Positions 4,901 to 10,060 of a DNA stretch of 40,164 bases are shown one piece after another. Numbering within the stretch: position 1 is the stretch's first letter; each line of letters starts with the position of its first letter. The DNA is taken from positions 1 to 40,164 of the forward strand of contig CAIZLD010000053.1 in NCBI GenBank assembly GCA_903933715.1, read 5' to 3'. Under the pieces are notes generated by a model that was not told the origin of the DNA, did no database searches, and saw only the letters and a list, made by a program, of their open reading frames with translations. The translations under genes were made by a program, and so were the position numbers. Source of the stretch: an uncultured Spartobacteria bacterium. GTDB lineage: Bacteria; Verrucomicrobiota; Verrucomicrobiia; Chthoniobacterales; Chthoniobacteraceae.

Positions 4901-5614
4901 ATTGAGCCCGAGGCTTAATATCGGGGCGTGGGAGAGCGAAATCGCGAACGCCTCGACCGTTTGCCCGGTGAGCGTGCGCCCGCTCAAATCGGTAACCGTC
5001 CCGGAAATCAGGATCGGCAGCTCCACGCCGAGCTTCCCGAACACCTCCGTAATCGCAAACAGCGCGGCCTTGGCATTGAGGGTGTCGAATATCGTCTCGA
5101 CCAGCAGCACGTCCACCCCGGCTTCGATCAGCGCTTCCACCTGCTCGCAATAAGCGGTTTTGACCTGGTCAAACGTCACTTCGCGCCGGGCCGGGGCGTT
5201 CACATCTCGCGAGAGGGAAAGCGTCTTGCTCATCGGCCCGATCGAACCGGCCACAAAAGCCCGTTTGCCGGATTTTTCCACCGCACGCCGGGCACAGGCG
5301 ACCCCGGCCTGGTTCAATTCCCGGACCAGCGGTTCGAGCCCGTAGTCGGCCAGCGAAATCGACTGCGCATTGAACGTGTTGGTCTCGATGATATCCGCCC
5401 CGGCCGCCAGGTATTGCGCATGGATCTCCTCCACAATGGCGGGCTGGGTCAAACAAAGCAGATCGTTCGCCCCCTTGAGCAGCCGATGATGACCGGCAAA
5501 ACGCTCGCCCCGGTATTGTTCTTCGGAAAGCCGGTAAAGCTGGACCATTGTCCCCATCGCTCCGTCAAGGATCACAATACGTTCGGCTAGAAGCTGGGCG
5601 AGAGGATGGTTCAC
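1973..5614 (-). CDS. metH: Cobalamin-dependent methionine synthase
   Basis: This 1213-residue protein transfers a methyl group from 5-methyltetrahydrofolate through cobalamin to homocysteine, giving methionine. All four modules are present. The homocysteine domain comes first, with zinc ligands C239, C304 and C305 (GGCCGTTPD). The pterin domain follows ([23 protein letters not shown]). Then come the B12 cap and Rossmann module with the lower-ligand motif DVHDIGKN (H753), and last the AdoMet reactivation domain ([25 protein letters not shown]). Length and order match full-length enteric MetH. The start [22 protein letters not shown] fits the family. I found no cobalamin or SAM riboswitch in the 162 bp upstream. 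The organism therefore needs or makes B12. Confidence 0.97.
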
Positions 5615-5776
5615 CGTGGAAATCTACAAAAACAGCGCGGAAACTCAAGTAACAAATTAACGCATCATGATTGAACGATGGATATCCCCGAGCCACGCAT
5701 AAGGTTTTCGCCAACGGATTTTCCGTGAATCGAAACTGGTCTCGTTGAAAAACCGGGTTAGACTCCTGCCTTTGCC

Positions 5777-6535
5777 ATGCCCGAATTTCCCCGTATCACC
5801 CGCGATCCGAACGTGATGAACGGCAGACCTTGTCTGCGAGATACGCACGTCGCCGTCACCACCGTTCTTTCCCTTTTGTCCACGGGGCGCACTGAAATTG
5901 AAATCGTGCGGAGATTCCCGTCGTTGAGCATCGACGACATCCACGAAGCGTTGCTTTTTGCAGCCTGGGAAGTGGACCCCTCTGAAATGGCCCGTTCCGC
6001 AATGACGGAAGCCGCCAAACCGGCGCTCCCGGCTCCCCCCCGGTATCTGCAACCGCCCAAACCAAAACCGGTGGAACCGGCCCCATCCGAGGTCGCCCCA
6101 ACCCCGCCGCGGGAACAGGAACCGAACCTCGAATACTTTCACCCTTCCCGGCCCGATCAACCGACCGTGATGCTCACCAGCCACGGGATCATCGACCGGC
6201 GTTGGTCCACGGGGATCATTGCGTGGTGCGACATCCGGGATATCCGGCGAATCCCGGGCGAAAAAACCATCGTCATCAGTCTCCGCAATCCAAAGACGTA
6301 TCTCGCTTCGCTGCCGTTTTTCGAATGGATCGTGGCCCGCATCCGGCTGTTCATCAATCTCCGGGCTCTTTACCTCGACACCGCCTCGTTGGGCGTCCGC
6401 ACCCAGGATCTCCTCACCTCCGCCACCCGCTTCTGGACTCGCAACCGGGGAGCCGGTCGTAAAAAACGCCGGATCAGAATCGGGCGATCCAAGAGAAAAA
6501 AGTCTCTGTTCGCAGATGAGTATCTAGCAGAGTAG
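5777..6535 (+). CDS. DUF433 domain fused to a PH-like (STM3941-type) domain
   Basis: This 252-residue protein has two unlike parts. Residues 1-70 (ITRDPNVMNGRPCLRDTHV, then IVRRFPSLSIDDIHEALLFA) are a DUF433 winged-helix domain, a family linked to antitoxin-like DNA binding. Residues about 75-125 form a Pro-rich linker. Residues about 135-225 (VMLTSHGIIDRRWSTGIIAW.DIRDI, then VISLRNPKTYL, then LYLDTASLGVRTQDLL) resemble the PH-like domain of the STM3941 group. The tail is strongly basic (RKKRRIRIGRSKRKK). No toxin gene lies next to it. Its last 62 bp overlap the convergent prenyltransferase gene. Domain names rest on recognised patterns; the role is unknown. Confidence 0.8.
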   Translation: MPEFPRITRDPNVMNGRPCLRDTHVAVTTVLSLLSTGRTEIEIVRRFPSLSIDDIHEALLFAAWEVDPSEMARSAMTEAAKPALPAPPRYLQPPKPKPVEPAPSEVAPTPPREQEPNLEYFHPSRPDQPTVMLTSHGIIDRRWSTGIIAWCDIRDIRRIPGEKTIVISLRNPKTYLASLPFFEWIVARIRLFINLRALYLDTASLGVRTQDLLTSATRFWTRNRGAGRKKRRIRIGRSKRKKSLFADEYLAE

Positions 6536-7349
6536 CCGCGACGAAGACGCATCCCACAAAAGCGTTGCTGACAAAGAACGCCTGATTGATCGCCTCCAGG
6601 TCCAAACGGCGGGCCACGCGATGCTCATAAACCAGCGCCGCCAACACCAACCCCAAGCTGCCGAAATAAATCGGCCCGAGCCCGGCGGCGGCTCCAAATC
6701 CGCCCAAAAGCAAAAACATCCCCGCATGCAGCCCTTGAGCGAGTTGCAGACTGCGCGCAACCCCCAACCGCACTACCATCGAGTGCATCCCTTCCTGGCG
6801 GTCAAACTCCACGTCCTGTGTGGCATAAATGAGATCAAACCCCGCGACCCATAGAACCACGCCCGCCGCTAGGATCAGCGGCGGCAGCGCAAAATGCCCC
6901 GTCACCGCCAGCCATGCCCCCATCGGCGAGACCGCCAACGCCAGTCCGAGAAAAAAATGGCACCAAGAGGTAAATCGCTTGGTTAACGAATAAAAAAAGA
7001 CCAGTGCCAACGCGACGGGGCTTAAAGCAAAGCAGAGCGGGTTGATGAACCACGTCACCGCCACAAAAGCCGCTGCGCTCCCGATACAGAGCGCCATCGC
7101 TCCGGGATGAGTGATGAGTTTGTGGCGGCCCGCCGTCCGGGGATTGCGCTGATCCATTTGCCAATCGGCGAGCCGGTTGAAAGCCATCGCCGTCGTCCGG
7201 GCAAACACCATCGAAAGCAGAATCAGCCCCAGCAAACGCGCCGAGGGAACTCCCTTGGCCGCCACGAGCATCGACCCGAGCGCAAACGGGAGCGCGAAAA
7301 CGGTGTGAGAAAACCGGATGAACTTCAGAATCCGGGATACCGCGTTCAT
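6474..7349 (-). CDS. mqnP: UbiA-like prenyltransferase, MqnP type
   Basis: This 291-residue, multi-helix inner-membrane protein belongs to the UbiA family. Two Asp-rich motifs that bind the prenyl diphosphate are present: NRLADWQMDQRNPRTAGR and DLIYATQDVEFDRQEGMHS. Both read most like the subgroup first called 'other UbiA', now placed as MqnP in the futalosine menaquinone pathway. That points to menaquinone rather than ubiquinone synthesis. No other mqn gene lies in the window, so the assignment rests on motifs. Its ATG overlaps the stop codon of the upstream secreted-protein gene (ATGA), which suggests translational coupling. Its 3' end overlaps the DUF433 fusion gene on the other strand. 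Confidence 0.85.
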   Translation of the reverse strand: MNAVSRILKFIRFSHTVFALPFALGSMLVAAKGVPSARLLGLILLSMVFARTTAMAFNRLADWQMDQRNPRTAGRHKLITHPGAMALCIGSAAAFVAVTWFINPLCFALSPVALALVFFYSLTKRFTSWCHFFLGLALAVSPMGAWLAVTGHFALPPLILAAGVVLWVAGFDLIYATQDVEFDRQEGMHSMVVRLGVARSLQLAQGLHAGMFLLLGGFGAAAGLGPIYFGSLGLVLAALVYEHRVARRLDLEAINQAFFVSNAFVGCVFVAATLLDTHLRTETFFSWIARF

Positions 7350-7831
7350 TTTGCCGAACCCGTGGCCGCCGGAGCCGGTTCCTCAAACATATCCATCAGC
7401 CGGTCGTCGATGCGGATATCAATGAGCTTCCAGGCGCTGCCCGCGTTGTAAAAATAAAAACGCCACCGGATCGGGAATTGCTTTCCGATTGAAAGGCAGG
7501 TCAGCCGCTTTAGATGCTTGCCGACGTCCTTGGAATCAACGGTTTCATAGCTATTAATGCCGCCAAAAACCCGGATTGCCTCCCGCGTCTTGGCTTTGAG
7601 CATCGCCGTCTCCTTCGGCAAATCGGCGATCTTCGTCCCCAGGAGCAGTTGATCGTAAGCCGTGTCAACGCGACCTTCGATCAGGCGCGCAAAAAAGCCG
7701 TCCACCTGCTGGGCGGGCTCGACCAGCTCCTGGGCTTTCTTCTCAATCTCCACCGGCTCGGCAAAAACCGGCGCGACAACCAGGGTCGCCGCCACAAAAG
7801 TCAAACCGGCAAACAACAAAATTTTCATCAT
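7346..7831 (-). CDS. Small secreted protein of unknown function
   Basis: This 161-residue protein has a Sec signal peptide (MMKILLFAGLTFVAATLVVAPVFA). A short acidic and helical part follows, then an alpha+beta region (FARLIEGRVDTAYDQLL, then FPIRWRFYFYNAGSAWKLIDIRIDDRL). That layout recalls the NTF2/SnoaL-like or DUF4864-like folds often found in small periplasmic proteins, but I cannot place it with confidence. The gene is coupled to the MqnP-like gene by a 4-bp ATGA overlap, so the two are one operon. It is divergent from ppk across a 90 bp gap. Confidence 0.8.
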   Translation of the reverse strand: MMKILLFAGLTFVAATLVVAPVFAEPVEIEKKAQELVEPAQQVDGFFARLIEGRVDTAYDQLLLGTKIADLPKETAMLKAKTREAIRVFGGINSYETVDSKDVGKHLKRLTCLSIGKQFPIRWRFYFYNAGSAWKLIDIRIDDRLMDMFEEPAPAATGSAK

Positions 7832-7921: not shown

Positions 7922-10060
7922 ATGCCGCTGGACCTTTCCGCACCCCAAAATTTCATCAACCGCGAACTGAGCTGGTTGGAGTTCAACCGCCGCGTGCTGG
8001 AGGAAGCACAGGACGTGACTCAACCACTCCTGGAACGGGTGAAATTCCTGAGCATTTTTTCCTCCAACCTCGACGAGTTTTTCGAAATCCGGGTGGCGGG
8101 AATCAAGCAGCAGATCGACAGCGGCAGCACCGATGCCGGGCCCGACGACCTCTCGCCCACGGAAATCTTTCAGTGCGCCACCAAAACCATTCACGAGCTG
8201 GTCGCGGCGCAATACGATCTTTGGAACCAGCAAATCGTGCCGCTTTTGGCGCAAAACGGCATCCGGTTTAAAAAGGTCGCCCACCTCAAGGGAGCCCAGG
8301 CGGAATGGGCTCGCCGTTATTTCCGGAACGAAATTTTCCCGGTGCTGACCCCGTTGGCCGTGGATGCCAGCCATCCGTTCCCGCAGGTGCTCAACAAGAG
8401 CCATAACCTGATGGTCCGCGCCCGCCGGCCCGACGAGGAAGAACCGCTTTACGCCATTGTCCAGGTGCCCCGCGGGGCTCCCCGGCTCATCGCCCTTCCC
8501 TGCCAGGAAGAGTCCGAAGCTTGCGAATACATTTTTCTGAGCGATCTCGTAAAACAATACCTCGGCGACCTTTTCCCCGGCCTCCAACTCGAAGGGGTCC
8601 ACGCCTTCCGGATCACCCGCAATGGCGATCTCTATATCGACGACGAAGAAGCCGACAACCTCCTGCGCACCATTGAGCAGGAACTGCTTCGCCGCAACAA
8701 AGGCAATGCCGTGCGGCTGGAAGTCGCCGCCGATTGCCCGCGCGATTTTCAGCTCCTTTTGCTGGAGCGGTTCAAACTCACCGACGCCGATCTCTATCAA
8801 CTCGACGGCCCGATCTCGATGACCCATCTTTCGCGGCTTTTGAGCAACGAAGCGCTGGCCAAGCTCAAGGACCGCCCGTTCTTCCCCGCCCACGATCCGT
8901 CCCTGCCGCCGGGCATCAATGCCTGGGAGCGGCTGCGCCACGAAGACATTCTCTTGCATCACCCGTACGAGCCGTTTGAGGACTTGGTCGATCTGATCGA
9001 AAAAGCCGCCGAAGACCCCAAGGTGCTGGCGATCAAAATGACCCTGTACCGGACCAGCGGCGATTCCCCCGTCGTCGCCGCCCTCGGGGCCGCCGCCGCC
9101 AACGGCAAACAGGTCACCGCGATTGTCGAACTCAAGGCCCGCTTTGACGAAGCCAACAACATCCAATGGGCGCGCAAGCTCGAAGAAGCGGGCGTCCACG
9201 TGGTCTACGGAGTCGTCGGGCTCAAAACCCATTGCAAGATGTTCCTGATCGTCCGGCGCGACAGCGACCGCATCCGGCAATACGCCCACCTGAGCACCGG
9301 CAACTACCACCCGAGCACCGCGCGCATCTACACCGACCTGGGGCTTCTCACCAGCAATCGCGCCATCACCGAGGAAGTGGCCACCCTCTTCAACACCCTC
9401 ACCGGGCTGGCCGAATATCCCGGATTCAAAAAATTGCTCGTTTCGCCATTCGACCTCGCCGTGCGATTCAAAGCCCTCATCGAGCGCGAGCGCGACCACG
9501 CGTTGCAAGGGCGACCGGGCCGCATCATCGCCAAGCTTAATTCGTTGGTGGACGAAACGTTGATCACCGCCCTATACGAAGCGTCATGCGCGGGGGTCAA
9601 AATCGATCTCATCGTGCGCGGCATCTGCTGCCTGCGGCCCGGCGTTCCCGGGGTCAGCGAAAACATCCGCGTATTAAGCATCGTGGGGCGGTTCCTGGAA
9701 CACAGCCGGGTCTTCTACTTTGCCAATAACGGGCATCCCGCTCTCTACCTGGGCAGCGCCGACTGGATGCCGCGCAACCTCTACCGGCGGGTCGAAATCG
9801 CTTTCCCCATCGAAAGCCCCACCCTGCGCAAAGACCTCATTCAGGAAATCCTGCCCGCCTATCTCAACGACCGGGTCAAAGCCCGGCAGCTTCAGCCCGA
9901 CGGCTCGTACATCCGGCTCAAACCGGCACCGGGACAGGAAACTTCGCAAGCGCAGCTCTATTTCCGGGAAAAAGCGCGCAAGCTCAACGCAGCCGCCCCG
10001 TCGGTCTCGGTGGGGGACCACACCCACAGCAATCGCCTCACCCCGATCGCCAAGCCCTAA
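7922..10060 (+). CDS. ppk1: Polyphosphate kinase 1
   Basis: This 712-residue cytoplasmic enzyme builds polyphosphate from ATP reversibly. The N-terminal FINRELSWLEFNRRVLEEA motif is diagnostic. The autophosphorylated histidine sits in KTHCKMFLI (H437, equal to H435 of the E. coli enzyme). The second catalytic histidine is in FLEHSRVF (H594, equal to H592). LSTGNYHPSTARIYTD and LGSADWMPRNLYRR complete the phospholipase-D-like C-terminal half. Length is normal. No strong ribosome site precedes the ATG. The stop codon lies inside the terminal repeat of a fold-back element that fills the gap to the next gene. No ppx gene is adjacent. Confidence 0.97.
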   Translation: MPLDLSAPQNFINRELSWLEFNRRVLEEAQDVTQPLLERVKFLSIFSSNLDEFFEIRVAGIKQQIDSGSTDAGPDDLSPTEIFQCATKTIHELVAAQYDLWNQQIVPLLAQNGIRFKKVAHLKGAQAEWARRYFRNEIFPVLTPLAVDASHPFPQVLNKSHNLMVRARRPDEEEPLYAIVQVPRGAPRLIALPCQEESEACEYIFLSDLVKQYLGDLFPGLQLEGVHAFRITRNGDLYIDDEEADNLLRTIEQELLRRNKGNAVRLEVAADCPRDFQLLLLERFKLTDADLYQLDGPISMTHLSRLLSNEALAKLKDRPFFPAHDPSLPPGINAWERLRHEDILLHHPYEPFEDLVDLIEKAAEDPKVLAIKMTLYRTSGDSPVVAALGAAAANGKQVTAIVELKARFDEANNIQWARKLEEAGVHVVYGVVGLKTHCKMFLIVRRDSDRIRQYAHLSTGNYHPSTARIYTDLGLLTSNRAITEEVATLFNTLTGLAEYPGFKKLLVSPFDLAVRFKALIERERDHALQGRPGRIIAKLNSLVDETLITALYEASCAGVKIDLIVRGICCLRPGVPGVSENIRVLSIVGRFLEHSRVFYFANNGHPALYLGSADWMPRNLYRRVEIAFPIESPTLRKDLIQEILPAYLNDRVKARQLQPDGSYIRLKPAPGQETSQAQLYFREKARKLNAAAPSVSVGDHTHSNRLTPIAKP

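Follow-up and report, generated by a model that had tools for sequence, protein, structure and literature searches.

A DUF433 winged-helix domain fused to an STM3941-type PH-like domain in one genus of Chthoniobacteraceae

The window analyzed here is a stretch of 40,164 nucleotides (contig CAIZLD010000053.1, assembly GCA_903933715.1) from an uncultured Spartobacteria bacterium of the family Chthoniobacteraceae. An ATG-initiated open reading frame (ORF) of 252 amino acids occupies positions 5777-6535 (+) of the window exactly, and its neighbors are metH, the gene for UbiA, an ORF of 161 amino acids, and ppk. The sequence-only reading had described the product as a DUF433 domain joined by a Pro-rich linker to an STM3941-like PH domain and a basic tail; this architecture was borne out by profile searches and structure prediction. 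No RNA families were found in the window. The 161-aa ORF (7346-7831, -), which has no Pfam match, lies beside ppk both in this genus and in its sister genus, at 48-63% identity, and a protein of 341 amino acids adjoining metH (874-1899, -), likewise without a Pfam match, has conserved counterparts in two further genomes of the genus.

The DUF433 winged-helix domain (residues 7-62; 5795-5962, +) was matched by Pfam PF04255 with 59.3 bits, against a gathering cut-off of 23.6 (E 3.2e-16). In an AlphaFold run on the fusion with 13 aligned sequences, residues 1-60 were modeled at pLDDT of about 88-96, and VIA-align placed residues 5-66 onto the solved DUF433 protein 2ga1 with Z 10.2 and rmsd 0.8 over 62 residues; 2ga1 was also the sole match, a weak one, in a search of solved structures by sequence. 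The full-length model (mean pLDDT 77.7, pTM 0.47) comprises two confident domains (residues 1-79 and 118-223) connected by a loose linker, the tail being disordered, and the low pTM is consistent with two domains that lack a fixed mutual position. The Pro-rich linker (residues 73-116; 5993-6124, +) was modeled at low pLDDT; it comprises 44 amino acids with 32% Pro in the window protein, and 42-109 amino acids with 17-24% Pro and an acidic composition in the orthologs described below. The C-terminal tail (residues 224-252; 6446-6532, +) contains the motif RK(K/R)RRxR in 5/5 orthologs and carries a net charge of +10 to +13 over 32-36 amino acids across the fusions, the charge of the DUF433 domain being -2 to -4.

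Assignment of the second half (residues 117-223; 6125-6445, +) required several lines of evidence. Positions 60-150 of the NCBIfam profile STM3941_fam (NF041635) align with residues 128-213 at 28.0 bits (E 1.8e-6), which is short of the curated threshold (40 bits), and the same match was obtained for the three orthologs scanned (25.7-29.5 bits, E 6e-7 to 9e-6). In the Pfam scan, no model, PF08000 included, matched this half. The model of residues 118-223 shows two packed beta sheets with a C-terminal helix cap, and the order of strands and helices was unchanged when the PH-like part was modeled alone. With VIA-align, residues ~112-231 align to PH, FERM-F3 and PTB domains with Z scores up to 8.9 over 75-90 residues, and the best structural neighbors other than DUF433 proteins belong almost exclusively to these three classes (Z 7.7-8.9). 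A Z score near 8 is by itself no proof of fold, and the Foldseek matches for this half were weak (E 0.16 or higher); the PH-like call is therefore based jointly on the profile match, the topology seen in the models and the agreement in class among the structural neighbors. This combination supports a predicted PH-like domain of the STM3941 type although the profile score is below the curated cut-off. The PH-like fold, which the sequence-only reading had left to structure prediction to refute for residues 130-225, is present in the model at residues ~116-223.

In ordinary STM3941-type proteins, two transmembrane helices precede the PH-like half, and the fusions have neither. Because the match to NF041635 begins at position 60, DUF433 and the linker have taken the place of the membrane part. 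In the stand-alone relatives identified in the phylum (L101-L103, the first of them recovered at 25 bits with the PH-like profile built from the fusions), hydrophobic segments lie at the N-terminus, with a maximum 19-residue hydropathy of ~1.9-2.7, whereas the highest value in the fusions is 1.1-1.3, and no hydrophobic segment stands in place of the lost helices. These observations bear on the possibility that the fusion is a membrane-linked regulator, in which the PH-like domain and the polybasic tail would bind acidic lipids and keep the DNA-binding domain at the membrane until a signal releases it. The tail is indeed basic, and the PH-like half has membrane proteins as its relatives, with STM3941 itself given as a putative inner membrane protein (PMC3405474), but the transmembrane part is precisely what the fusion lost. 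Furthermore, the PH domains of PF08000, a different family, have a short phospholipid-binding hairpin and were considered unlikely to bind lipids (PMC2817789). We thus regard membrane linkage as distinctly improbable. Bacterial PH domains oligomerize and have been proposed as mediators of protein contacts (PMC2817789). The sequence-only reading had suggested a regulator linked to a membrane or a protein, which is plausible; the absence of the transmembrane helices with no hydrophobic substitute favors a putative protein contact over a membrane contact.

The other four genomes of the genus all encode full-length orthologs, 39-49% identical to the window protein, so that the fusion is found in 5/5; these four are metagenome-assembled genomes (L027, L028, L029 and L031) labeled Spartobacteria, Chthoniobacteraceae and Verrucomicrobia. 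The orthologs were recovered with an alignment as the query, a first DNA-pattern scan with the single protein having given none. A profile of the PH-like half detected no fusion among the family's 35 remaining genomes, the other 208 genomes of the order or 387 further genomes drawn from the phylum; searches of plasmid collections yielded matches to the DUF433 part only, and those of phage collections yielded no match. Among the genomes searched, the range of the fusion is thus a single genus of Chthoniobacteraceae. Assembly error, which had been named as a possible origin if the fusion were confined to one genome, was rejected because five separate genomes carry it. Other candidate DUF433 fusions in the family were rejected as well, because most of the long open frames turned out to be stand-alone DUF433 genes extended upstream. 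An ORF in another family member (L092, 717-1421, -) combines DUF433 with ~95 extra residues and a Pro-rich end, possibly an unrelated extension.

The pattern of substitutions differs along the protein. In the closest pair of orthologs, dN/dS is lowest in the PH-like domain (0.10), followed by the tail (0.18), DUF433 (~0.22) and the linker (~0.5); synonymous sites are near saturation in the other pairs, and in most pairs the dN of the linker nears dS. These rates show that both domains are under purifying selection and that the linker is far more relaxed.

In the window and in two other genomes, the fusion gene sits between metH and ubiA, overlapping the 3' end of ubiA. The basic tail is not a by-product of this overlap because RK(K/R)RRxR persists in the two genomes where the overlap is absent. 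In the sister genus (G010, L067), the site is empty: ubiA ends a short way upstream of metH and no gene intervenes. The fusion was therefore inserted there. Its place beside metH, from which it is divergent in 5/5 genomes, may accordingly stem from a single inherited insertion and not from a function in common.

The fusion is also separated from toxin-antitoxin modules. As the sequence-only reading had noted for the window, no toxin gene adjoins the fusion, and this holds in 5/5 genomes; by comparison, a DUF5615-like toxin ORF adjoins 17/20 stand-alone DUF433 genes, a sample from many phyla that was selected with a DNA pattern and is biased toward one subgroup. The family itself is one of PIN-associated antitoxins (PMC3834315, PMC2701414), and the fusion could in principle act in trans as the antitoxin of a DUF5615/PIN-type toxin encoded elsewhere, given that one DUF433-DUF5615 pair is present on another contig of this genome (C71). 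However, this sole DUF5615 match in the genome is already paired with its own DUF433 gene, and at E 0.01, in a survey of PIN-type toxins that covered DUF5615 alone, 4/5 fusion genomes gave no DUF5615 match, although they are 90-95% complete. Action in trans is accordingly very unlikely in our estimate. The pair on contig C71 (L002, 1492-2042) has the canonical antitoxin/toxin arrangement and lies downstream of a site-2-protease-like gene.

Two features of the DUF433 domain set the fusions apart from the antitoxins. Arg24 is present in 35/35 stand-alone DUF433 sequences and is replaced in the fusions by His (4) or Gln (1), the codon for His24 in the window occupying 5846-5848 (+); the YPYLE turn before the last helix, typical of the toxin-linked subgroup, is not kept. 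With Arg24 lost and this turn changed, DNA binding may be altered or gone. In an alternative that takes this to its end, the fusion would be an adaptor that does not bind DNA, with DUF433 retained solely as a folded dimer or a module for protein contact and the work being left to the PH-like domain and tail. The change of Arg24 in 5/5 fusions, the changes at residues ~47-51 of DUF433, the acidic character of this domain, and the lack of an operator in the intergenic alignment and at the metH loci of the family all point in this direction. On the other hand, the fusions strongly conserve the core of DUF433, with a dN/dS of ~0.2 in the closest pair, and members of the family bind DNA, as in the case of VapB10 (PMC3834315). 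We consider the adaptor a serious but rather doubtful alternative.

VapB10, the DUF433 antitoxin of Synechocystis, binds an inverted repeat in its own promoter and activates it (PMC3834315), and the divergent intergenic region common to the fusion and metH (5615-5776, from the metH start at 5614 on the minus strand to the start of the fusion) contains a palindrome, ATCATGAT, that is invariant in the alignment of the five species and forms part of a longer conserved site upstream of metH (5656-5671, -). Together with the divergent arrangement, these facts would fit a local regulator of both its own gene and metH. However, the remainder of the intergenic region shows no conservation across the five species, and the exact palindrome occurs in 25/30 metH upstream regions of the family (L061-L090), usually at a distance of 56-118 bp from metH and irrespective of whether the genome carries the fusion. 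Elsewhere in this genome, the closest match (two overlapping hits with 2 mismatches) falls between metK and a divergent gene encoding an ArsR-family regulator with a methyltransferase domain (L110). In Proteobacteria, SahR and SamR sites with the consensus ATC-10nt-GAT control metH and metK (PMC4239095). As the site precedes metH regardless of the fusion and a similar one lies near metK, we infer that it most likely belongs to a SahR/SamR-like methionine regulon in Chthoniobacteraceae. ATCATGAT was thus rejected as an operator of the fusion itself, fusion-less relatives keeping the palindrome upstream of metH and a similar site lying upstream of metK, and neither the five-species alignment nor the 30 metH loci of the family revealed an operator conserved solely alongside the fusion. 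Local control of metH is the reading to which we assign the slimmest chance; in the best explanation, metH is a mere neighbor. In a single species (L028, ~7955-7990), a near-perfect inverted repeat, GGGGGCTCTCAGCTTTGAGACCCCC, is located just upstream of the fusion start and is possibly a leader hairpin.

The reading that we prefer, at a probability of roughly 40%, is that the fusion is an orphan, antitoxin-derived soluble regulator, in which DUF433 and the tail would contact nucleic acid and the PH-like domain would bind a partner. In this scenario, a DUF433 antitoxin domain would have parted from its toxin and joined the PH-like, cytoplasmic portion of a membrane protein of the STM3941 type, and the resulting gene would have entered the site between ubiA and metH in an organism ancestral to a single Chthoniobacteraceae genus. 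Contact with nucleic acid would be made by the winged-helix domain and the basic tail, with specific DNA binding suggested by analogy with VapB10; the flexible linker would allow independent movement of the two halves; and the PH-like domain would bind a partner protein or self-associate, after the manner of known bacterial PH-like domains. A regulatory role would be in line with the proposal of Makarova et al. 2009 that solo antitoxin homologs regulate other operons (PMC2701414). An elaboration that we consider unlikely is that DNA binding is gated by the PH-like domain sensing a membrane or protein partner, which would be an undescribed mode of control for DUF433 proteins.

The closest known systems each share one part of this architecture. 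The COG2442/DUF433 antitoxins, such as VapB10 and Ava_0674 (PDB 2ga1), have the same winged-helix fold and most of the same core residues, but the fusion is three times longer, has no adjacent toxin, has lost Arg24 and has gained the PH-like domain and the basic tail. Fusions of DUF433 as such are already known: Rv2018 of Mycobacterium tuberculosis (PDB 5af3; Foldseek probability 1.00) also contains DUF433 within a longer protein (PMC2701414), but there the domain is joined to another winged helix, a PIN gene is associated and, unlike in the fusion described here, no PH-like domain is present. With the STM3941 family, the common feature is the PH-like half, profile positions 60-150; the fusion scores below the cut-off of the family, and DUF433 and the linker stand in place of profile positions 1-59, which are hydrophobic in the best stand-alone relatives. 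The bacterial PH domains of PF08000 (PHb), which use the PH superfold for protein contact or oligomerization (PMC2817789), share this superfold with the fusion, which has no sequence match to PF08000. In a partial literature search, no paper describing a DUF433-PH-like fusion was found, none was found that treats DUF433 and DUF5615 together by those names, and only one was found that names STM3941. The architecture, which the sequence-only reading had considered unfamiliar, is thus unusual in being unmatched in this partial search and confined so far to one genus; the fusion is a new combination of known parts.

The locus offers a clean and datable case of domain capture, in which an antitoxin domain without its toxin was combined with the PH-like domain of a membrane protein without its anchor and the empty site survives in a sister genus. 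If the proposed role as a regulator is true, the fusion would illustrate one route by which parts of toxin-antitoxin systems become host genes. The fusion also represents a soluble form of the uncharacterized STM3941 PH-like domain and may be more tractable experimentally than the membrane-bound forms.
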